From Eubacterium sp. (GTDB taxonomy: Bacteria > Bacillota > Clostridia > Lachnospirales > Lachnospiraceae), in contig JAFRGL010000020.1 in NCBI GenBank assembly GCA_017433825.1, forward strand, positions 36,803-100,802: a stretch of 64,000 nucleotides of DNA. The letters run 5' to 3'. The notes beneath the pieces are model-generated. The model was given only the letters and a program-made list of their open reading frames with translations. It searched no databases and was not told where the DNA came from. Shown piece by piece: positions 5,464 to 64,000 of this stretch. Each line of letters begins with the position of its first letter. Within the stretch, counting starts at the first letter, position 1. Both the position numbers and the translations under genes were made by a program.

Positions 5464-6120
5464 ATGACCAAGAAAGAAGAAGCCGAGCTTAGGCGGGCGG
5501 AGAAACTGCAGAAGGAAACCGAGCGGGTGGAGTCCTTATGCGAATATGAAAAGAAATATGCCGCTGCGGGCTTTATCTGCGGCATCGATGAAGTGGGCCG
5601 CGGTCCTCTGGCAGGCCCGGTGGTGGCCGGAGCGGTGATACTGCCGGCGGACTGCAGGATTCTTTACATTAATGACTCAAAAAAGCTCTCGGAGAAAAAG
5701 CGCGAACTGCTTTGCGAAGAGATTAAGGAGAAGGCGGTCTCCTGGGCTGTGGGCATCGTGTCCTGGGAAGTGATCGATGAAATCAATATCCTGCAGGCCA
5801 CCTACGAGGCCATGCGGCAGGCCATCGCAAAGCTTGACCCCGCACCTGCCCTGCTTTTAAATGACGCCGTGAAAATCCCCGGTATCGACATTCCGCAGGT
5901 GCCGATTATCAAGGGCGACGCCAAATCCCAGTCCATCGCGGCTGCCAGCATCATCGCCAAGGTGACCAGGGACCATATGATGGAGGAATACGACAAGCTC
6001 TATCCCGGCTATGATTTCGCCGGCAACAAGGGCTACGGCACCGCCGCTCACATCGCCGCCATAAAAGAAAAAGGTCCCTGCCCGATTCATCGGAGGACCT
6101 TTATCAAAAACTTTGTATAA
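5464..6120 (+). CDS. rnhB: Ribonuclease HII
   Basis: Ribonuclease HII cuts RNA in RNA/DNA hybrids and removes single ribonucleotides from DNA. The site is visible: GIDEVGRGPLAGPVVAG carries the first Asp and Glu, LLNDAVKIPG the third acid, and KGDAKSQSIAAASIIAKVTRD the fourth. I place the start at the ATG at 5464 (218 residues), since AGAGGT lies 10 bases upstream; the ATG at 5422 has no such site. A charged helical stretch of about 40 residues (KKEEAELRRAEKLQKE) precedes the catalytic domain, longer than in Bacillus. It follows the 64-bp array and is followed by REP-like palindromes. Confidence 0.95.
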   Translation: MTKKEEAELRRAEKLQKETERVESLCEYEKKYAAAGFICGIDEVGRGPLAGPVVAGAVILPADCRILYINDSKKLSEKKRELLCEEIKEKAVSWAVGIVSWEVIDEINILQATYEAMRQAIAKLDPAPALLLNDAVKIPGIDIPQVPIIKGDAKSQSIAAASIIAKVTRDHMMEEYDKLYPGYDFAGNKGYGTAAHIAAIKEKGPCPIHRRTFIKNFV

Positions 6121-6275
6121 GCCTTCCCCTTCAGGAAGGTTTTCCTCACCCGCCGGCTAAAGCCGGCACCCTCTCCACAGGAGAGGGCTTTCCTCACCCG
6201 CCGGCTAAAGCCGGCACCCTCCCCTCAGGGGAGGGCTTTTTACTGTCTCGACCTCTCACAAGGTGGAGAGGGCTT
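6121..6275. repeat. REP-like palindromes, two tandem copies plus a third arm
   Basis: CCTCACCCGCCGGCTAAAGC, CGGCACCCTC and GGAGAGGGCTTT occur twice in tandem (about 6147-6190 and 6193-6240), followed by a degenerate third hairpin. The region lies between the convergent ends of rnhB and the response regulator and probably also terminates transcription. It belongs to the same family as copies at 42.7, 51.0-52.6, 56.0, 57.4 and 60.4 kb. Confidence 0.8.
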
Positions 6276-6276
6276 T

Positions 6277-6978
6277 TTATTCCACTTTCAGCATACGGTA
6301 GCCGATGCCGATGTGTGTCTGGATGTACTGCGGGGAATCCGGTGCAGCCTCCAGCTTTTTACGCAGGGTAGCCATAAACACGCGCAGGGAAGCCACGTCA
6401 TTGTCCCAGCTGCTGCCCCAGACGCTTCTGGTGATAAATGTGTGGGTCAGCACCTTGCCCACATTCCTGGCCAGCAGGCATAAGAGCTTATACTCAATGG
6501 GCGTAAGCTTCATTTCCTCGCCGTTCAGGTATGCGCACCCCGCGGGAAAATCAATCTTCAGCTGACCGTTTACGAAGATGGCATTGGAAGCCGTATCCGG
6601 ATTCTGCAGCAGGGAAAGCCGCCTTACCGTTACCCTTAAGCGGGCCAGCAGCTCCTCCACGGAGAAGGGCTTGGTCAGGTAATCGTCCGCGCCAGCGTCC
6701 AGGGCCTCTATCTTGTCTTCATCCTCGCTTCTGGCGCTGATGACGATGATGGGCATGTTGGACCAGCTGCGGATTCTTTTTATGACCTCTACGCCGTCCA
6801 TATCCGGCAGTCCTAAATCCAGGAATACCACATCCGGGTTGTAGGTTGCCGCCTGCATGACGCCGTCTTCGCCGTTTGCCGCTGTTATGAATTTGTAATC
6901 GTGGGTTTTTAAGGTGGTGCTGATAAGGTTCCTGACCGGCTGGTCATCCTCTACAATCAGAACCGTGATTTTATTCAT
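6277..6978 (-). CDS. kdpE: KdpE-like OmpR/PhoB-family response regulator
   Basis: The 233-residue protein has a receiver domain with phospho-acceptor Asp in VVFLDLGLPDMDG (about residue 53), the switch Thr/Ser in IIVISARSED and Lys in YLTKPFS. A winged-helix output domain follows, with LTPIEYKLLCLLARNVGKVLTH and the recognition-helix region SLRVFMATLRKKLE. Both blocks match KdpE better than PhoP. It overlaps the kinase gene by 8 bases. Its likely target is the 11-bp direct-repeat array upstream of the ktrB-like gene, which would make the operon autoregulated. Confidence 0.85.
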   Translation of the reverse strand: MNKITVLIVEDDQPVRNLISTTLKTHDYKFITAANGEDGVMQAATYNPDVVFLDLGLPDMDGVEVIKRIRSWSNMPIIVISARSEDEDKIEALDAGADDYLTKPFSVEELLARLRVTVRRLSLLQNPDTASNAIFVNGQLKIDFPAGCAYLNGEEMKLTPIEYKLLCLLARNVGKVLTHTFITRSVWGSSWDNDVASLRVFMATLRKKLEAAPDSPQYIQTHIGIGYRMLKVE

Positions 6979-8992
6979 GTATAGCTACCTCCCCTTCCGG
7001 CAAAATAAAGGTAAAGATACACCCGGAAGGCTCATTATCTGACAGGGAGATGCTGCCGCCGTGGGCTTCCACGATGGACTTGCACAAAGCCAGGCCAAGA
7101 CCTAGGCTCTTCCTGCTGTCCCTGCCCGCATTCTGTCCGGTGAAGAACATATCAAATACATGCCCCTGCTCTTCCTTTGGGATGCCGGGCCCGTTGTCCG
7201 CCACGTGCACAGCCACAAAGCCGTCTTTCCTCTCATAGGAAATCTGTATGACTGACCCTGCTTCCGTATATTTTACTGCATTATTGATGAGATTGACAAG
7301 CACCTGTACGATAAGCTTCGCATCCATTTTCGCAAAAAGCAGATCATTGTTCCTTTCCACGAAAATCCGGTGTGCCGTGCTGGTGCGGGACACGTGCTTC
7401 AAGGCCTCGTCCACCACGTCCTCCACCAGCTCGCTGGCCAGGTTCATGGTCATCCTGCCGTCCTCAATCCGGGTAACGGACAGGAGGTTTTCCACCAGGT
7501 TGATAAGCCATTCGGAATCATCGTAAATATCCGTGAATATCTGCTGCCTGGTATCCTCGTCCAGCTGCTCATAATGCGACAGCAGGTTGCTGGCATTGCC
7601 GGAAATAGACGTAAGCGGCGTACGCAGGTCGTGGGAAATGGACCTTAACAGGTTCGCCCGCAGCTGTTCGTTCTGGGCCTTTAAGGCCGCCTGTTCCTTC
7701 TCCGAAGCATTCCTTAAGTTTTCCATGGCCAGCGCGCATTCGCCTAAAATAGACATCAGCACGCTGTACTCGAAAGATTCCGGCTGGCGTTCCCGCAGAT
7801 CGATGCCGACCACGCCGTAGACTTTGTCGCTGATGAGTACCGCAAGATACATGGCGTTTGCCTCCGGGAAGCGGTCCGTGCCCGCGCCGGCCCTTCTTTT
7901 GTTATCCAGCACCCACTGGGCCGTATCGTATTCCTTCGTCCCGAAAAACGCAGGGCTTTTCTCCCCGTCATTGACCGGGAAAACATAGCCTTTACCCAGC
8001 GTATTTCCTTCTACGGCATAAAATACCACGTCTGTATTCAAAAGCAGGATAACCTGGTTTGCGGTAATCCTTATGACTTCATTTTCATCCTTCGCCTTCT
8101 GCAGCATCTGGTTGGTATCCAGAAGAACCTTCGTACGGAAGGCCGCGCGGGAGGACTGTCTGGCGTTGTCCTGCAGACGGTTGGCCAGGGTACCGGTGAT
8201 CAGTGACGCCACCAGCATGACCGCAAAGGTGACAGCGTATTCCGTTTCATAGGTGTGGAAGCTGTATTTTGGTTCGATGAAGAAATAGTTGAACAAAAGC
8301 ACGCCCGCCAGGGATCCGATAAAGCTGACCGACAGGCTGGTGGTAAGGGTGGCCGAAATCAGCACGCCCAGGATGTACAGTGTGATAATATTCGCTTCGG
8401 AAAAGCCCAGGTTGGAAAACAGCAGCCCCAGGCAGGTCATGCCTGCCAGCAGCAGCGCCGTTACGAGAAGCTCCCTGCCGGAGGGCAGGATATTCCGGAT
8501 CGGTCCGAAACTCTGGGTCCGGCTTCTCAAGTCAGCCGAGGAATCCGGGATAATGTAGATTTCAATATCCGGAGCGTTGACGATAAGCTGCTCCGTCAGG
8601 TTCGAGCCGCCTCGGAAAGGCTTTTTCTTCTGCGTACTGCGGCCGATAACGATTCTCGTTACGCCGGAGGCTCGGGCAAACTCCGCTATCTGGTAGGGAA
8701 TGTTGTCCCCGATTACCGTGGTAATCGAGGCCCCTTTTCTTTCCGCCAGGCGGATATTTCCGGCAAGCCTGGCCTTGTCTTCCGCAGACATGCTTTCCCT
8801 GTCGGAAGCCTGGACATATACAGCGGTAAATACAGCATGAAAAGCAACCGCAAGTTTTGCGGCTGCTTCTATAATCTTTGCGTTGGAAGGCGAGGAGGAC
8901 AGGCAGACCAGGATATGCTCCTGGTTTTTCTGCCCGATAAGTTCCTCCGTTATCGTCCCGTGCGTATTTTCAGTTAACAATTCATCTGTCAT
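6971..8992 (-). CDS. kdpD: KdpD-like sensor histidine kinase lacking the N-terminal KdpD domain
   Basis: At 673 residues it is about 220 shorter than E. coli KdpD. It starts directly with a UspA-like domain (EHILVCLSSSPSNAKIIE, then GVTRIVIGRS). Four membrane segments of the DUF4118 type follow (about 175-270), then a GAF-like linker, HisKA (LLRSISHDLRTPLTSISG, phospho-His) and an HATPase with VNLINNAVKY and GLGLALCKSI. The P-loop-bearing PF02702 domain is missing and the start MTDELLTEN has a fair ribosome-binding site, so this looks natural rather than truncated. It would sense potassium or cyclic-di-AMP-type signals by its USP and membrane parts; this is inferred from the family. Confidence 0.85.
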   Translation of the reverse strand: MTDELLTENTHGTITEELIGQKNQEHILVCLSSSPSNAKIIEAAAKLAVAFHAVFTAVYVQASDRESMSAEDKARLAGNIRLAERKGASITTVIGDNIPYQIAEFARASGVTRIVIGRSTQKKKPFRGGSNLTEQLIVNAPDIEIYIIPDSSADLRSRTQSFGPIRNILPSGRELLVTALLLAGMTCLGLLFSNLGFSEANIITLYILGVLISATLTTSLSVSFIGSLAGVLLFNYFFIEPKYSFHTYETEYAVTFAVMLVASLITGTLANRLQDNARQSSRAAFRTKVLLDTNQMLQKAKDENEVIRITANQVILLLNTDVVFYAVEGNTLGKGYVFPVNDGEKSPAFFGTKEYDTAQWVLDNKRRAGAGTDRFPEANAMYLAVLISDKVYGVVGIDLRERQPESFEYSVLMSILGECALAMENLRNASEKEQAALKAQNEQLRANLLRSISHDLRTPLTSISGNASNLLSHYEQLDEDTRQQIFTDIYDDSEWLINLVENLLSVTRIEDGRMTMNLASELVEDVVDEALKHVSRTSTAHRIFVERNNDLLFAKMDAKLIVQVLVNLINNAVKYTEAGSVIQISYERKDGFVAVHVADNGPGIPKEEQGHVFDMFFTGQNAGRDSRKSLGLGLALCKSIVEAHGGSISLSDNEPSGCIFTFILPEGEVAIHE

Positions 8993-57478: not shown

Positions 57479-58882
57479 TTACTCCTCCGTCATCCTCCAC
57501 ATCTCTTCTTTCCACTCCGGATGGCAGATTCCCGCTGCATCCAGCAGCCTTACCAATACCATGAAAGCGGCTTTTTTCTTCGCTTTTACCTTGGCCGGGG
57601 CCGTACCGTAGCCGTTCACGCCGCTGCAGACGCATTCACAATGCCATTTTCCGCCGCTTATTTCCTCGAATTCGTAGGAAGGCGAGTCGACATATTTCTT
57701 CTGGAAAAGCTCCTGCAGCTGGTTGATGCTGTCATCATATTTCGGGATGACGCCGGCATCCTTAAGATTCATCCACAGGCCGCTTGTTACCACAAAGCCA
57801 TAAGCGCGTTTTGCGGCTTCCTCACGGGCCTTGCTTCTCGTCTCCCCTTCCGCGTCGAAACGCTGATCCGGCTGGATCCGCAGGTCATTTTCAGGCACCT
57901 GAAAACGGATGGTGCAGGAATATGCCGGCCCTTCCTTGCTTCTCCAGGGCCTTATCCTGTTGATTTCATAAGCCGGCATGCAGCCGAACCGTCTCTGGTG
58001 CCAGGCATTGAAAATATCATAAATCGTCTGCTTGAGAAGCTCGTCCGGATTCATGATATGAATACCCAGCAGCCGGTCAATCACGCGTCCCGCCGCGTCC
58101 CAGTCCCAGCCGCTGTCCACCATGACCGCGCCGACAAGCGCTTCCAGCGCGTCTTCACCTGCCTTATCCGTATGCTCTTCACCGGAACCATACAGAATGA
58201 ACCGGTCCAGTCCCAGCTCCGCCGCCTTCGCGCTTAAATTTTCTCCCGAAACAAACCGGTTTCTCAAAGCAGTTAGGTCGCCTTCCGCATACCTGCACTG
58301 GAAAGGCGCCTCCGGCACCGTCGTCCACACGTCCGCCATCTGCTTCACAGCCGCCCTGGTCACCACCGTCTGCAGCACCGTATCGCCGATGAACTCCAGC
58401 TCTTCATTGCTGCCGTAAAGCGCGTATTCCTCGGCAAATGCCCTTCTGGTAAATGCCTGCCGCAGCAGATTTTCATTGATAAATTCATAACCGGTCATGT
58501 CCCGGAGAATATAAACCGGGTCATTTTCAGGCATCTGCGCCGGGATTTTCAGCATGTTGATGTGGGTGATCAAATCATCTTCCCAGATATCCTCTTCAAA
58601 GCCCTCAAACCAGTAATCCCAGCCCATGGCAGGAAACCAGTCTTCCTCTTCGTCGGTACCGTCGTCAGGCGTCCACTCGTCATTCAGGGTGTAATCCTCC
58701 TTCAGCCGGCCATCCTCCACCAGGGAATCATAATACTCCTTAATCTCCAGCAATTCTTCGCCTTCCTCATCCAGCTTCAGCATCTGCGCATCTTCAACTT
58801 CCCAGAAATCGCCCTCTCCTTCCGCCAGCGGTTCCGGCCATACACAGTTCTCCGGCCAAGGTTTACGTCTTTTTTTCTGCAT
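57479..58882 (-). CDS. RNase III-like protein with acidic N-terminal extension
   Basis: Starting at the ATG at 58882 with GGAGG upstream (467 residues), it has an acidic N-terminal region of about 130 residues. A RNase III domain follows, with signature NEELEFIGDTVL (159-170) and EDALEALVGAVMVDSG (Glu247), keeping both catalytic acids. Two regions resemble double-stranded-RNA-binding domains (EGETRSKAREEAAKRAYGFV about 335-375; SGGKWHCECVCSGVN with KAKKKAAFMVLVRLLD about 410-450). It is about twice the usual Rnc length and separate from the rpsP/ffh locus, so it is probably a second RNase III. The promoter and a 230-nt leader lie upstream. Confidence 0.82.
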   Translation of the reverse strand: MQKKRRKPWPENCVWPEPLAEGEGDFWEVEDAQMLKLDEEGEELLEIKEYYDSLVEDGRLKEDYTLNDEWTPDDGTDEEEDWFPAMGWDYWFEGFEEDIWEDDLITHINMLKIPAQMPENDPVYILRDMTGYEFINENLLRQAFTRRAFAEEYALYGSNEELEFIGDTVLQTVVTRAAVKQMADVWTTVPEAPFQCRYAEGDLTALRNRFVSGENLSAKAAELGLDRFILYGSGEEHTDKAGEDALEALVGAVMVDSGWDWDAAGRVIDRLLGIHIMNPDELLKQTIYDIFNAWHQRRFGCMPAYEINRIRPWRSKEGPAYSCTIRFQVPENDLRIQPDQRFDAEGETRSKAREEAAKRAYGFVVTSGLWMNLKDAGVIPKYDDSINQLQELFQKKYVDSPSYEFEEISGGKWHCECVCSGVNGYGTAPAKVKAKKKAAFMVLVRLLDAAGICHPEWKEEMWRMTEE

Positions 58883-58890
58883 AATAAAAA

Positions 58891-59151
58891 CCTCCATGAT
58901 TGAAATATTACATGGAGGCATACTGGTTTCTCTTCCGCCGTACGCTTATAAAGCATAACACCATATTTCCCATTGGAAATAAGCTGTCACGCTTACCGTA
59001 CGCGCATCGCTACCATCAAAACATTCTTCTAAATGCCGCCTCTCTGCCCGCCGGCCCTTTCAAGCCGCCAGCCAGGATGACAAACACTTGGCAAAACGCT
59101 TCATGCCATCCATGCTGGCAATATTATGCCTCGCGGGCAGGTAAATGTCAA
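58891..59151 (-). promoter_or_regulatory. Promoter and structured leader of the RNase III paralogue
   Basis: On the minus strand TTGACA (59151-59146) and CATAAT (59128-59123) are 17 bp apart, giving a leader of about 230 nt. Its end has CCTCCATG (58918-58911) exactly complementary to CATGGAGG (58898-58891), so the Shine-Dalgarno GGAGG is locked in an 8-bp hairpin. Farther up are a TATTTCC/GGGAAATA hairpin and two CGTACGG copies. The rest of the gap 58883-59245 holds the small ORF at 59158. Confidence 0.7.
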
Positions 59152-59157
59152 GAAAAC

Positions 59158-59259
59158 TTATAATTCCTCCACATACGCATCTCCTCTGCTCATGGCGATA
59201 GCCAGTAATTCTTCTGCAATCTCTTTGTTTTCCAGACGAATCAGATTACCCTGCCGCAT
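59158..59259 (-). CDS. Possible 33-residue overlapping ORF
   Basis: A short frame of 33 codons starts at an ATG inside the last codons of the HTH-GHKL gene and overlaps it by 14 bases. It reads MRQGNLIRLENKEIAEELLA, then IAMSRGDAYVEEL. It has an amphipathic helix and ends seven bases before the RNase III -35 box. No ribosome-binding site of its own is visible, so it would depend on coupling. It is possibly only the end of a frameshifted protein. Confidence 0.4.
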   Translation of the reverse strand: MRQGNLIRLENKEIAEELLAIAMSRGDAYVEEL

Positions 59260-60259
59260 GACGGAACATTTTGGCAACATCCGGATTCATATTCACCGGG
59301 AGCAGGTTTATAGCCGGATGCTCCTTTCGGAAAACACGGAACAACTGATCAGCAAATCCCTGGCCCATCCATTCGATTCCTTCAAAATCCAATATGACCT
59401 CTGAGAATTCGCCGAAACGATGCGTCAGACGTTTCGCCTGGGATCGGGAAACCGGCGAACGGTCGAAGATATTCTTTAACGGTATTCTGGTACGGATAAA
59501 ATTCCCCTCTTCATCCAAATATAAATCAAAAATCTCCTTCGTCTGTTTTGCGCTGTTATTGGAAAGCTTCATAAAAACACATGTCCCGGGCAACATCATT
59601 TCCTTCGAAAAAACCGCAATCTGTTCATCGTCATAATGATTGCAGGTAAACATCCTCCCGCCTGAAAAAATCGCGAACTCATCCATCAGCCGGGAACTGA
59701 AGAATATTCCCTCTCCGGAATGATTCTCCGTATCTGTGGTGAGCTTTCCTTTAAACAATTCTTCAATGGATTCATCTGCCGTAGAAAACCCGAAATGCTT
59801 TTTAATTTTCTCAAAAATACCAATGCCTTCATCAATGATATATACTGACGTATTCAGACAATCCTGACGGACGGATACAAAAGCAGTCTCCGATTCGGAA
59901 TGGTCCATTACGTTATTTATCATTTCTGAAAACACATAGCCCCAGATATGTATTACATTATCCGGCAAATGTTTGATATGCGGTTCAAGGTATTTTACAA
60001 AAACAGTAATGTCCGAATCCAAATCACCTTTTTTGCGCTCCAGAACATAGTCCCACCGCTGCTGCTGCAAAGTATACTGCCCGCGGCGGATTTTTTGAAT
60101 TTTTTCCTGTTCTGCCAGCCTGCCGATACACCGGAATGCCGTACTCCGGTCTACAGAAAACACTTCCACGATATGCTGTGCTATATTTTCATACCCTTTA
60201 TCAATGATTTCCAGGGTATATTGTTCCATTGCTTCCCGCTTTTCTTTACTGAGACGCAA
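59246..60259 (-). CDS. HTH-GHKL ATPase-STAS-like (DUF4325) regulator
   Basis: I place the start at a TTG (60259), with AAGAGGTGG at proper distance, for 337 residues. The N part is a winged helix (VEVFSVDRSTAFRCIGRLAEQ, then IRRGQYTL). The middle has GHKL ATPase boxes: SEMINNVMDHSES (N box), IIDEGIGIF (G1) and HSGEGIFFSSRL (G2), as in anti-sigma kinases. The C part is a STAS-like DUF4325 domain (VILDFEGIEWMGQGFADQLF). It thus joins DNA binding, ATP binding and a STAS switch in one chain. Three copies of a 15-bp motif just upstream suggest autoregulation. Confidence 0.82.
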   Translation of the reverse strand: MRLSKEKREAMEQYTLEIIDKGYENIAQHIVEVFSVDRSTAFRCIGRLAEQEKIQKIRRGQYTLQQQRWDYVLERKKGDLDSDITVFVKYLEPHIKHLPDNVIHIWGYVFSEMINNVMDHSESETAFVSVRQDCLNTSVYIIDEGIGIFEKIKKHFGFSTADESIEELFKGKLTTDTENHSGEGIFFSSRLMDEFAIFSGGRMFTCNHYDDEQIAVFSKEMMLPGTCVFMKLSNNSAKQTKEIFDLYLDEEGNFIRTRIPLKNIFDRSPVSRSQAKRLTHRFGEFSEVILDFEGIEWMGQGFADQLFRVFRKEHPAINLLPVNMNPDVAKMFRHAAG

Positions 60260-60328
60260 GCAGACCACCTCTTTTCCTGTTAAAAATGATATTAATACTT
60301 TACTATAAAGTGTTCTTAAATTCAACAG

Positions 60329-60996: not shown

Positions 60997-61018
60997 CGAT
61001 TTGAAAGGAGTAAATATC

Positions 61019-61297
61019 ATGTCTACAACGCCAACACAAATCCGTATAGATACTGCTGTAAAAGAACAGGCAACCATACTTTTCGCTGAACTCGGCATGG
61101 ATATGTCCAGCGCGGTAAATATCTTCCTCCGGCAATGTATCTTAAGGGGCGGTCTGCCATTCTCCGTAGAACTGCCGAACTACAGCCAGCAAACCTTAAA
61201 TGCCATAGTGGAAGCCAGAAAGATTTCCAGAGTTCCTGACGTCCCCGGATATAATAATATGGCTGAACTGAAGGAGGCGCTGGAAGGGGAGGAATGA
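61019..61297 (+). CDS. RelB/DinJ-family antitoxin without a visible toxin
   Basis: From the ATG at 61019 (AAAGGAG upstream; an earlier GTG/ATG frame is less likely) it has 92 residues. MSTTPTQIRIDTAVKEQATI and LFAELGMDMSSAVNIFLRQC are the ribbon-helix-helix of RelB/DinJ, followed by the toxin-binding tail. It normally pairs with a RelE/YafQ toxin that starts at the ATGA overlap, but the frame after it is cut short (see 61294). Confidence 0.85.
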   Translation: MSTTPTQIRIDTAVKEQATILFAELGMDMSSAVNIFLRQCILRGGLPFSVELPNYSQQTLNAIVEARKISRVPDVPGYNNMAELKEALEGEE

Positions 61298-61371
61298 TGT
61301 ACACAGTCCAACTGGAATTGTCAGAAACTAAAGTAGCGAAACCACAAACTGAAATAACTTCGTTTCAATAA
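61294..61371 (+). pseudogene. Truncated toxin-position ORF after relB
   Basis: A frame starting ATGATG at the end of relB codes 25 residues (MMYTVQLELSETKVAK...) and stops. Its place and start overlap are those of a toxin gene, but the residues do not resemble RelE, so it is most likely a broken remnant after a recombination at the border to AT-rich DNA. Confidence 0.4.
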
Positions 61372-61634
61372 ATGATTGTCAAGCTATTCGGTATTACTTG
61401 CTTCTGGCGGTTTCTGTAAGCAAAGATCGTGATACAAGGCACCCCAAAACAAGCCCTATAGAGTGAGGATTTGCTGCATGTATGCTTCATACCCATTGCA
61501 TCCCGGGGCAATGGAAGGCAGCGCAGAATACAGGAATCATCAATCTTTTTTTGTTTTCCTGCAAACAATAATGCAGAGTTCAGAGGAGTTGGCACTAATT
61601 ATGCCGAGTGTAACGAGACTTATAGCCGTATCGC
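61372..61634. other. No gene recognised
   Basis: AT-rich and without a convincing start, ribosome-binding site or conserved frame. It lies between the relB remnant and the end of the TIR gene. Only short spurious frames were seen. Confidence 0.6.
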
Positions 61635-62045
61635 CTATAATGCATATTTCCTAACAGCTTCAACAACAGAACTCGAATTCCAACCGACCATAATAACAGC
61701 ATTATTCTGAACCTTCGCGGGAATTCTCTCTTGACCCCAAGGCTTTACCCCAATAATAGGTTTTCCCATGGCTACAGCTGTGTCAATTTCAAAATCAATC
61801 CAATTACTATATGCAACATACATCCCGGAGAGAATAATGACACAACTGCACAAAGAGATACGGTCTTTGATTCTCTGTTTTAATTCATTAACGCCATTAA
61901 CATTTAGCGGATTGGTAATCGGAACAGAATAATCCGTCCACTGAAAATACGATGATGCATTAAGCCATCCTTTAATTGTCTCATAGTGTCTATTGTAATC
62001 CCAAGAATGGCTGATCAAAATGTGATAATTTCTTAAGCTTGGCAT
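61635..62045 (-). CDS. thsB: ThsB-type TIR-like protein (DUF1863)
   Basis: The 136-residue protein has YHILISHSWDYNRHYETIKGW, FQWTDYSVPITNPLN, VIILSGMYVAYSNWIDFEIDTA and KPIIGVKPWGQERIP. These match the MTH538/ThsB TIR fold of Thoeris systems. The putative catalytic Glu is residue 86 in NWIDFEI. Such proteins make a cyclic ADP-ribose-type signal from NAD+ when a phage infects. It is two bases after the caspase-like gene, with AAAGGACAAGAGG before its ATG, so the two are one operon. Confidence 0.9.
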   Translation of the reverse strand: MPSLRNYHILISHSWDYNRHYETIKGWLNASSYFQWTDYSVPITNPLNVNGVNELKQRIKDRISLCSCVIILSGMYVAYSNWIDFEIDTAVAMGKPIIGVKPWGQERIPAKVQNNAVIMVGWNSSSVVEAVRKYAL

Positions 62046-62047
62046 TT

Positions 62048-63016
62048 TTAAAACCTCTTGTCCTTTGATAGTTTCCAGTAGTGTAGGCCAAGTGCCGTTA
62101 GTCTACAAGATCTGCTCTCCATTGCAGCAAAATACATATGGTCAGTTCCTACAGGCTCTATTAGCCCAACACTCTCAAATAGTTGTAATTCTTTGAAAAT
62201 TGAAACCTTATCCTGGTTTGCATGGGGCTCCAAGACTTTATGTACTACTCTAGGATCATTGGTAAACTCATAAGATGGATCTAGTTTGTATTCGTCAGTA
62301 GGATTAATAAAATACTGGCTGATTTTTCTCAAAGTGGCTTTTGGCACTTTCGCAGAGATCGTTCTTACAGGAAGAAATTGAGAAATATTGGTTTTAAATA
62401 CCGGTCTCTGTTGCCACGCCCCCAAAGACTGATCAACAAAAGAATACAATGATGCAGGAGTAATGTTTCCACTTATATCTGCTGCCCCACCTTTTAATCC
62501 TTGAATAAGAAGATCAGTAAATAGTCCATGCTGTATCGTTAGATCTTCCATAGACGTTTCCCACGAACGACTTGCTGCCATAATAGTTACACCTTCGCCT
62601 AAAACAGAATTATTATTCATCAGAAGAGATTCTCCCATCTGACCTGAAAAGCAACAATCGAGAATGATAACCTTATTTCGACAGCGTGAATCATTTGCCA
62701 ATTGAAGAATATCCGTCATACGAACACCATAACAGGATTTGCTAAAGTCTGTAGACACCAGGTAACCACCGTCTTTGTCTGCTCCATGGCCGGAGAAATA
62801 AAGCAGGGCTATCTCGGCATCATCAGCAAAGAGTGCTTGAATATTTGACTGCAGATCCTCCTTACTACAAGAGTCTGTAACTAGCTTTACATCAAAATTT
62901 GGTGAGCCATCTCCGTTTGATTCAATTAGGTTAGCAATCGCTATAGCATCATTATCACACCATTTAAGTTCACAGTTGGGATATTGATTAAGTCCAACTA
63001 TAAGTGCTTTTTTCAT
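62048..63016 (-). CDS. Caspase-like (C14) protease of a Thoeris-type module
   Basis: The 322-residue protein has a caspase fold: LIVGLNQYPNCELKWCDNDAIAIANLI at the start, IALLYFSGHGADKDGGYLV with His77, and KVIILDCCFSGQMGES with Cys122, the dyad. After residue about 215 a C-terminal part follows, with a winged-helix-like end (IFKELQLFESVGLIEPVG, RLTALGLHYWKLS) that may hold the sensor. Caspase-like effectors next to ThsB-type TIR genes are known as type IV Thoeris, in which a TIR-made nucleotide activates the protease and the cell dies. AGAAAGGAATAGG precedes the ATG. It is more AT-rich than most of the window. Confidence 0.88.
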   Translation of the reverse strand: MKKALIVGLNQYPNCELKWCDNDAIAIANLIESNGDGSPNFDVKLVTDSCSKEDLQSNIQALFADDAEIALLYFSGHGADKDGGYLVSTDFSKSCYGVRMTDILQLANDSRCRNKVIILDCCFSGQMGESLLMNNNSVLGEGVTIMAASRSWETSMEDLTIQHGLFTDLLIQGLKGGAADISGNITPASLYSFVDQSLGAWQQRPVFKTNISQFLPVRTISAKVPKATLRKISQYFINPTDEYKLDPSYEFTNDPRVVHKVLEPHANQDKVSIFKELQLFESVGLIEPVGTDHMYFAAMESRSCRLTALGLHYWKLSKDKRF

Positions 63017-63115
63017 TTCCTATTCCTTTCTCAAATACTGCATGTATAATAAACCCACCTCGAAAGACGGATTGTTCCGGATTTGCCGTTACGTCATTAA
63101 TAAGATTTTCATGTA

Positions 63116-63190
63116 TTTGATAGCACAAAAAAGGGCTTTCAGGTCATATCAGAACGCCATCATGCGTCCGGCTTTCCGTGTGCTATCAAA
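63116..63190. repeat. 12-bp perfect inverted repeat spanning the PIN gene end
   Basis: TTTGATAGCACA at 63116-63127 and its complement at 63179-63190 are 51 bp apart. The right arm is inside the last codons of the PIN gene and the left in the gap before the caspase gene. It could be a large terminator or a boundary site of the inserted DNA. Confidence 0.6.
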
Positions 63191-63699
63191 AATTCTGAAA
63201 AAGTAGTGGTTGGTAACATACGCCTTTTTCGAATCATTTCTGCCCAGATTGTATTTCCATCAGCTTCTGTGATGATTCCAGCGTTCATTGCCTCAATCAG
63301 AATATCCCCGGTTGTAATATGAGAAATGCTATATTTCTCGACATAAAGGCGGACATCACGGAAATTGTTGCTAGCAAGCGTACCATCTCTGTGTTTTGCC
63401 ATTGCGATACCGGCAGCTTCTCCTCTGCCTATGATCCGCATTCCATCTTCAGGTGAAGCAGTCATCTGCAGATAATCGAGATATTCCGCCGTTCCAGTCT
63501 CCATACTTTCGACACTAAGATCTCCTTGGTTTTTCAGCGCATCTACTCTTGCCTGCAAATGGGGAACTCTTTGGAGCTCATTATATACCTGCGTAGGCAA
63601 AATTATTTTGCCAGCATACAACCTTACCAGAATGCTTTCCTCTCGAACCCAAAGGAAAGCAGAGAGGCAATCGGTATCAAAGAAATACTTCTTAGTCAA
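63160..63699 (-). CDS. PIN-domain-like nuclease
   Basis: The start is best placed at a TTG (63699) with AAGGAGAGG just before it, giving 179 residues and overlapping the upstream gene by eight bases. KKYFFDTDCLSAFLWV opens the fold with the first Asp. VYNELQRVP (Glu), IIGRGEAAGIAMAKHRDG (Glu) and ASNNFRDVRLYVEKY (Asp) supply the other acids. IIGRGEA and ASNNFRD fit a PIN RNase of the DUF3368-like group. It is probably the toxin or effector of a two-gene module with the ImmA-like gene. Confidence 0.7.
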   Translation of the reverse strand: MTKKYFFDTDCLSAFLWVREESILVRLYAGKIILPTQVYNELQRVPHLQARVDALKNQGDLSVESMETGTAEYLDYLQMTASPEDGMRIIGRGEAAGIAMAKHRDGTLASNNFRDVRLYVEKYSISHITTGDILIEAMNAGIITEADGNTIWAEMIRKRRMLPTTTFSEFLIAHGKPDA

Positions 63700-64000
63700 T
63701 TGCCTCTCCTTCCTGATCATCATCCAAGCCGAACGCAATATCATCGCGGAAAGCATCGAGTAACAGTTCATCAATCTTTCCGGATGAGACCAGGTCTTTT
63801 TGCCGTAATTCTTCAACCTGCTTTAAATAATGGCCATACGTTCTTCTTTGAAACTTGATTGGTGTCGGGTTGTACAGTTTATCATCATATCCAAGTGTTC
63901 TTGCTGCCGATATTACACCATAATTGTAATCATCAAGTTTTTCTTGGGATAGATATCCTTCCGAAACCAACCGCCAAAGCATCGCCAAATGACTCATCCC
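63692..64000 (-). CDS. ImmA/IrrE-like protein, C-terminal part (5' partial)
   Basis: Only the last 102 residues are in the window and the frame is open to the right edge. VSEGYLSQEKLDDYNYGVISA, preceded by MSHLAMLWRL, resembles the C-terminal part of ImmA/IrrE metallopeptidases, where 'VS-LAMLxRL' follows the zinc site. The zinc-binding HExxH would lie outside. Its stop codon overlaps the PIN start. ImmA/IrrE-PIN pairs occur in Firmicutes as toxin-antitoxin-like modules; this assignment is tentative. Confidence 0.5.
   Translation of the reverse strand, partial: GMSHLAMLWRLVSEGYLSQEKLDDYNYGVISAARTLGYDDKLYNPTPIKFQRRTYGHYLKQVEELRQKDLVSSGKIDELLLDAFRDDIAFGLDDDQEGEAID

Follow-up and report, generated by a model that had tools for sequence, protein, structure and literature searches.

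What does the gene pair near the end of a 64,000-nucleotide stretch of Eubacterium sp. DNA (the window) do, and is it as unusual as it first appeared? One gene encodes a caspase-like protease and the other a small TIR protein, a combination that recalls type IV Thoeris, a defence kind built from a TIR protein and a caspase-like protease whose founding paper is reportedly that of Rousset et al. 2025 (Science 387:510). We consider it very probable that the pair is a two-gene antiphage system, acting by abortive infection, of this TIR-caspase or type IV Thoeris kind. Judged by its architecture and catalytic residues, it appears to be an ordinary member of a known and widespread kind, and the reasons that had been given for its novelty fail. 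What is worth keeping from the locus is the association of one protease domain with TIR neighbours and the exchange of TIR partners within the family. The coordinates of the features are collected in Table 1.

Table 1. Features of the caspase-TIR gene pair in the window.
Feature	Position	Strand	Basis
Caspase-like protease (C14), 322 aa, ATG start	62048..63016	-	ORF list; Pfam C14 E 3.8e-18
His77 of protease	62786-62788	-	SGHG motif
Cys122 of protease	62651-62653	-	DCCFSG motif
C-terminal domain of protease, residues 219-322	62051..62362	-	alignment; goes with TIR neighbours
ThsB-type TIR, 136 aa, ATG start	61635..62045	-	ORF list; Pfam ThsB_TIR E 1.1e-17
Glu86 of TIR	61788-61790	-	invariant in 52 aligned relatives
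Probable RBS of TIR gene, AAGAGG, within the last codons of the caspase gene	62054..62059	-	read by eye

Both reading frames of the pair are intact. The caspase gene comes first and the TIR gene second, and 2 bases separate the stop codon of the former from the start codon of the latter. Judging from this gap the two genes are presumably co-transcribed, and the AAGAGG site ahead of the TIR start suggests translational coupling of the pair; within 61200-63400 nothing matched a consensus promoter or terminator. The preliminary description had proposed profile searches with the ThsB and C14 families, and both families were indeed matched well over the Pfam curated cut-offs. The protease matched Peptidase_C14 (PF00656) with 66.5 bits against a cut-off of 21.4 (E 3.8e-18), and the TIR matched ThsB_TIR (PF08937) with 64.7 bits against a cut-off of 21.2 (E 1.1e-17). 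PADLOC labelled the protease 'caspase' (E 5.5e-12) and the TIR ThsB (E 3e-13), and none of the NCBIfam cut-offs was reached, the top model for the window protease being caspase_w_EACC1 with 106.6 of 140 bits. H77 and C122 were invariant across 68 aligned caspases and E86 across 52 aligned TIRs. Moreover, a profile of the caspase family matched the solved metacaspase 4f6o (E 1.8e-9), with the dyad motifs placed opposite its SGHG and DSCHSG. As far as the sequences indicate, the His/Cys dyad and the TIR glutamate are in place. The preliminary description had claimed a caspase-family protease of 322 residues with this dyad, a ThsB-type TIR of 136 residues with its glutamate two bases later, and a likeness of the adjacent genes to type IV Thoeris, all of which was borne out at the sequence level. 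A search of the window's genome with the caspase returned a single copy, the window's own.

The closest relative among the matches listed was L009, in a Lachnospiraceae MAG from sheep ileum, at 96% identity and with most of the differences synonymous. For this one pair of sequences, dN was 0.016 and dS 0.205 for the caspase, and dN was 0.025 and dS 0.130 for the TIR (toward L010, dS was not computable). The low dN relative to dS points to purifying selection on the pair. A genome_contigs scan yielded 342 confirmed loci, the best 80 of which have identities of 40-96% and span Bacillota, Bacteroidota, Pseudomonadota, spirochaetes, cyanobacteria, Planctomycetota and others. Together with the window, L002, L003, L006 and L007, these best 80 make up a set of 85 caspases, in which L003 and L074 lie on the same contig. 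Dropped before this count were L001 (a copy of the window), L008 (truncated at the edge of its contig) and two remote caspases, L004 and L005, in which the match was confined to the caspase part and no TIR was found. The alignment of 68 caspases omits 17 of the 85, which are mostly near-copies, with L082 omitted for no special reason.

For 80 of the 85 caspases (the best 80 of 342 loci plus 5), a TIR ORF reading in the same direction and at least 90 aa long was found no more than 120 bases away, core and accessory TIRs being counted alike. It lay upstream in 35 of these, downstream in 23 and on both sides in 22. This frequency indicates that the pair is a common unit and that the window copy is typical. 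The five misses were L027, L042, L045, L076 and L052. The nearest TIR is on the opposite strand in L045 and L076, and in L052 the upstream TIR is in two pieces, with a further TIR 533 bases downstream. L027 (5001-5969) carries a caspase with the C-terminal domain and no TIR was found nearby; it may be an orphan whose partner is elsewhere in the genome. In L042, which was counted as a miss, the caspase adjoins a 365-aa protein (6014-7111) that looks TIR-like with a membrane segment by eye, possibly a membrane-bound sensor variant. The caspase also matched 93 plasmid records, 49 of which cover 80% or more of the query, as well as 2 phage records. All four of the plasmid records that were retrieved carried the domain and an adjacent TIR.

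The C-terminal part of the protease had been described as an extra of this locus. It is instead a family-wide feature: this part (about residues 219-322) is common to all 68 aligned relatives, with nine residues (F236, E250, L277, L285, A297, A298, L306, G310 and Y313) invariant in the 68 rows. When taken in isolation (37 rows), it matched no credible Pfam family and no relative of solved structure (top E 0.91). Homology to winged helices was unsupported by Pfam, TrmB being matched by 2 of the 37 members with a top E of 0.082. No description of the domain was met in the literature searched, part of which was available as partial text, and the founding paper of type IV Thoeris may well hold one.

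A search of 398 genomes of the window's phylum with the C-terminal part alone returned 8 strong matches, each lying within an open frame of 319-333 aa that the caspase profile recognizes as well. A ninth, weak match (18.6 bits) in the same genomes was taken for chance. The Pfam caspase family, searched as a control in 398 genomes of this phylum, gave 30 C14 matches, comprising the 8 with the domain and 22 without it. A TIR neighbour, which in the genome samples means one within about 1.5 kb, was present for 8 of 8 caspases with the domain (the window's own included) and for 0 of 22 without it. TIR profiles at E 0.05, which were built from TIRs beside the same caspase family and could miss remote ones, found none around the 22 domain-less caspases. 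Likewise, no TIR was among the 25 of 57 Pfam families listed for the 62 ORFs neighbouring them. The split of 8 of 8 versus 0 of 22 therefore marks the domain as the link to the TIR.

Two further samples gave a similar picture. In the phylum of L047 (a Pseudomonas), 398 genomes gave 7 matches to the domain. A TIR neighbour accompanies 6 of the 7, counting the match in the centre genome, which was picked for its pair; the remaining match is truncated where its contig stops. C14 matches occurred in 128 of these 398 genomes, and the best-scoring 30 loci examined included none with the domain and none with a TIR (0 of 30 in each case). In 19 genomes picked for having the pair, TIR neighbours stood beside 17 of 18 caspases with the domain and 0 of 12 without it (30 of 40 matches examined). 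The association between domain and TIR is near complete; related genomes are not independent draws, and we claim no probability for the split. Because the link to a TIR neighbour is so nearly complete, the simplest reading is that the domain receives the TIR product, and it is most probably the receptor for the TIR's nucleotide signal. The preliminary description had suggested a new sensor here. The sensor role is plausible in view of the TIR link, but its newness does not hold for a domain that is family-wide. A sensor unique to the window locus was likewise rejected, since the domain occurs throughout the aligned family and in 8 of the 398 sampled genomes. This short domain tells TIR-linked caspases from other bacterial caspases and could serve as a marker for finding such systems; it is also the place to look for a nucleotide-binding pocket.

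The TIR, too, had been singled out, as a small ThsB-type protein that departs from longer TIRs. It turned out to be the norm: every core TIR in the alignment (52 of 52) gives a PF08937 match with an E-value of at most 0.01, which rules out an unusual small TIR. The core TIR of L003, outside the 52, scored 19.2 bits, just under the Pfam cut-off of 21.2. Single-linkage clustering divided the core TIRs in two, c0 with 51 ORFs and c1 with 48, the window's among the latter; in a TIR tree of few columns, c0 was well supported (98/96) and c1 was not (75/35). TIRs of a TIR_2-type group form an accessory second TIR, with the glutamate kept in 21 of 21 aligned members. They accompany a core TIR at its locus, L052 excepted, and at L028, L060 and L085 one of the two TIRs is about 1 to 2.3 kb off. 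Such a second TIR stands beside the core TIR in L003, L011, L012, L019, L020, L031, L038 and Pseudomonas loci such as L047-L050, and none was found beside the window pair by TIR profile.

On a quick caspase tree of 64 rows with one core TIR lineage each, the partner lineage changed at least 11 times, at least 6 of these changes being forced by starred branches. Shuffled partner labels needed 20.8 changes, compared with 11 at fewest for the real ones, indicating that TIR partners are partly inherited and partly exchanged between lineages. The caspases of L011 and L012, for example, are 76 and 75% identical to that of the window, and their TIRs are 24 and 28% identical. Such exchange is compatible with a common messenger, and it makes the modularity of sensing and signalling directly testable.

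We propose that the TIR would sense infection and cleave NAD+ through Glu86, and that its product would be a cyclic ADP-ribose-type messenger. This messenger would bind the C-terminal domain of the protease, a receptor role that we infer from the present analysis, and binding would switch on the His77/Cys122 active site. The protease would then cut cellular proteins, so that the cell would stop or die before the phage matures. What we observed in this analysis is the pair, its catalytic residues, the signs of purifying selection, the linkage and the domain-TIR association. Messenger production, the identity of the messenger as N7-cADPR, protease activation and the antiphage effect are taken from published type IV Thoeris work (PMC12847820, in the part of its text available). 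The anatomy of the window pair fits this published mechanism. A broader reading, which we put forward tentatively and rate a little short of an even chance, is that the C-terminal domain (about 219-322) is an unclassified receptor for TIR-derived cyclic nucleotides that is diagnostic of TIR-linked caspases. The protease-receptor would then be a fixed output module into which TIR lineages, often with a second TIR that keeps its catalytic residue, have been plugged repeatedly as interchangeable sensors sharing one chemical language.

The same two-part logic could also run on another NAD+-derived messenger (3'cADPR, 2'cADPR or an ADPR adduct) in place of N7-cADPR, which would make the pair a sibling type and not strict type IV. 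The available part of PMC12847820 describes different products for the TIRs of other Thoeris types; the window TIR matches Pfam's ThsB family, and the partner TIRs fall into distinct lineages. However, one caspase family pairs with both core TIR lineages and changes its partner on the tree; because it has swapped the core TIR lineage at least 11 times, a signal shared across lineages is the easiest explanation, and we regard a different messenger as unlikely. A TIR that switches the protease on through physical contact, with no diffusible messenger involved, is less probable still. The tight coupling of two genes 2 bases apart would suit such contact, whereas a scaffold would not need the catalytic Glu that is invariant in the 52 aligned TIRs, and the L011 and L012 caspases closely resemble the window's even though their TIRs do so far less.

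The least probable alternative by far is that the pair is decaying or incidental and has no joint function. In its favour, the assembly is in fragments and the window stops where its contig stops, but this explanation is already contradicted by the intact frames, by dN that is low relative to dS and by the linkage in 80 of 85 caspases (best 80 of 342 loci plus 5). Taken together, a TIR-caspase defence pair of the type IV Thoeris kind is the reading that we prefer.

The region around the pair has features of its own. GC content in 61635-63816 is 40%, compared with 51.6% for the window, as for a mobile cassette. Comparison of the window with L009 gave one matching block, 61388-64000, which comprises the upstream genes and the pair. 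Around the pair, L010 matched over 61631-63032, the two genes only; away from the pair there are four short matching segments within 57692-59114. On the viral contig L006 (1018-6972), a TIR-caspase pair follows genes that look phage-tail-like by eye, as prophage cargo would. Upstream of the window pair, 63160-64000 (-) encodes a protein that looks PIN-like by eye (PADLOC PDC-S70 E 3.3e-8), beyond which lies the last part of an ImmA/IrrE-like protein, truncated where the contig stops; genes farther upstream are visible only in relatives. In L009 (3244-4856), XRE-like, ImmA/IrrE-like and PIN-like genes stand ahead of the pair, and on the Enterococcus faecalis plasmid L091 an annotated HTH, ImmA/IrrE and VapC trio precedes it. 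These upstream XRE/ImmA/PIN genes may form either a toxin-antitoxin or a repressor-protease switch. The upstream proteins of L009 were compared by phmmer with the ORFs of the loci collected by then. The PIN-like protein was found in the window and L009 only, ImmA-like proteins beyond these two in L091 (E 1.8e-7) and L086 (E 3.8e-5) only, and the XRE protein gave weak matches only (L014, L007); of the L091 trio, the XRE and VapC proteins were not recovered as counterparts of the L009 proteins. The XRE-ImmA/IrrE-PIN module was considered as a dedicated regulator and is retained as a side observation.

According to the available part of PMC13373217, capK-capS genes precede 12 type IV Thoeris loci. 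A protein of 359 aa encoded in the window at 59246-60325 (-) combines DUF4325 (STAS-like, E 1.2e-14) with an HATPase match just below the cut-off; it is alike in domains to the CapK regulator described there but lies downstream of the pair. CapK/CapS control of the window pair had been considered in view of that report, and it was set aside as far as this CapK-like protein is concerned. A RelB-type antitoxin gene (Pfam E 1.2e-10) lies on the opposite strand at 61001-61297 (+), immediately beyond the downstream end of the pair.

Among known systems, the caspase family NF047832 (EACC1-associated type) is the sole NCBIfam family matched, with 68 of 68 aligned caspases reaching E 0.001 or better; the window protease itself is below the cut-off at 106.6 of 140 bits, and the match covers its residues 3-198 only. 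The Canu caspase-nuclease loci (PMC12799240, as far as its available text goes) likewise place a bacterial caspase in phage defence. However, Canu combines a nuclease partner with an Ig-like fold, whereas the window caspase is paired with a TIR and carries a C-terminal domain for which no relatives are known. The window TIR belongs to the same Pfam family (PF08937) as ThsB of type I Thoeris, but type I effectors carry a SIR2 NADase in the account given in the available part of PMC12847820, and the partner in the window is a caspase. Type IV Thoeris, as described in the text available, shares with the window the adjacent genes, a TIR with a catalytic Glu and a caspase-family protease with a His/Cys dyad, a likeness set by architecture and catalytic residues. 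With this assignment, the pair would extend a widespread kind of defence to one more gut bacterium.
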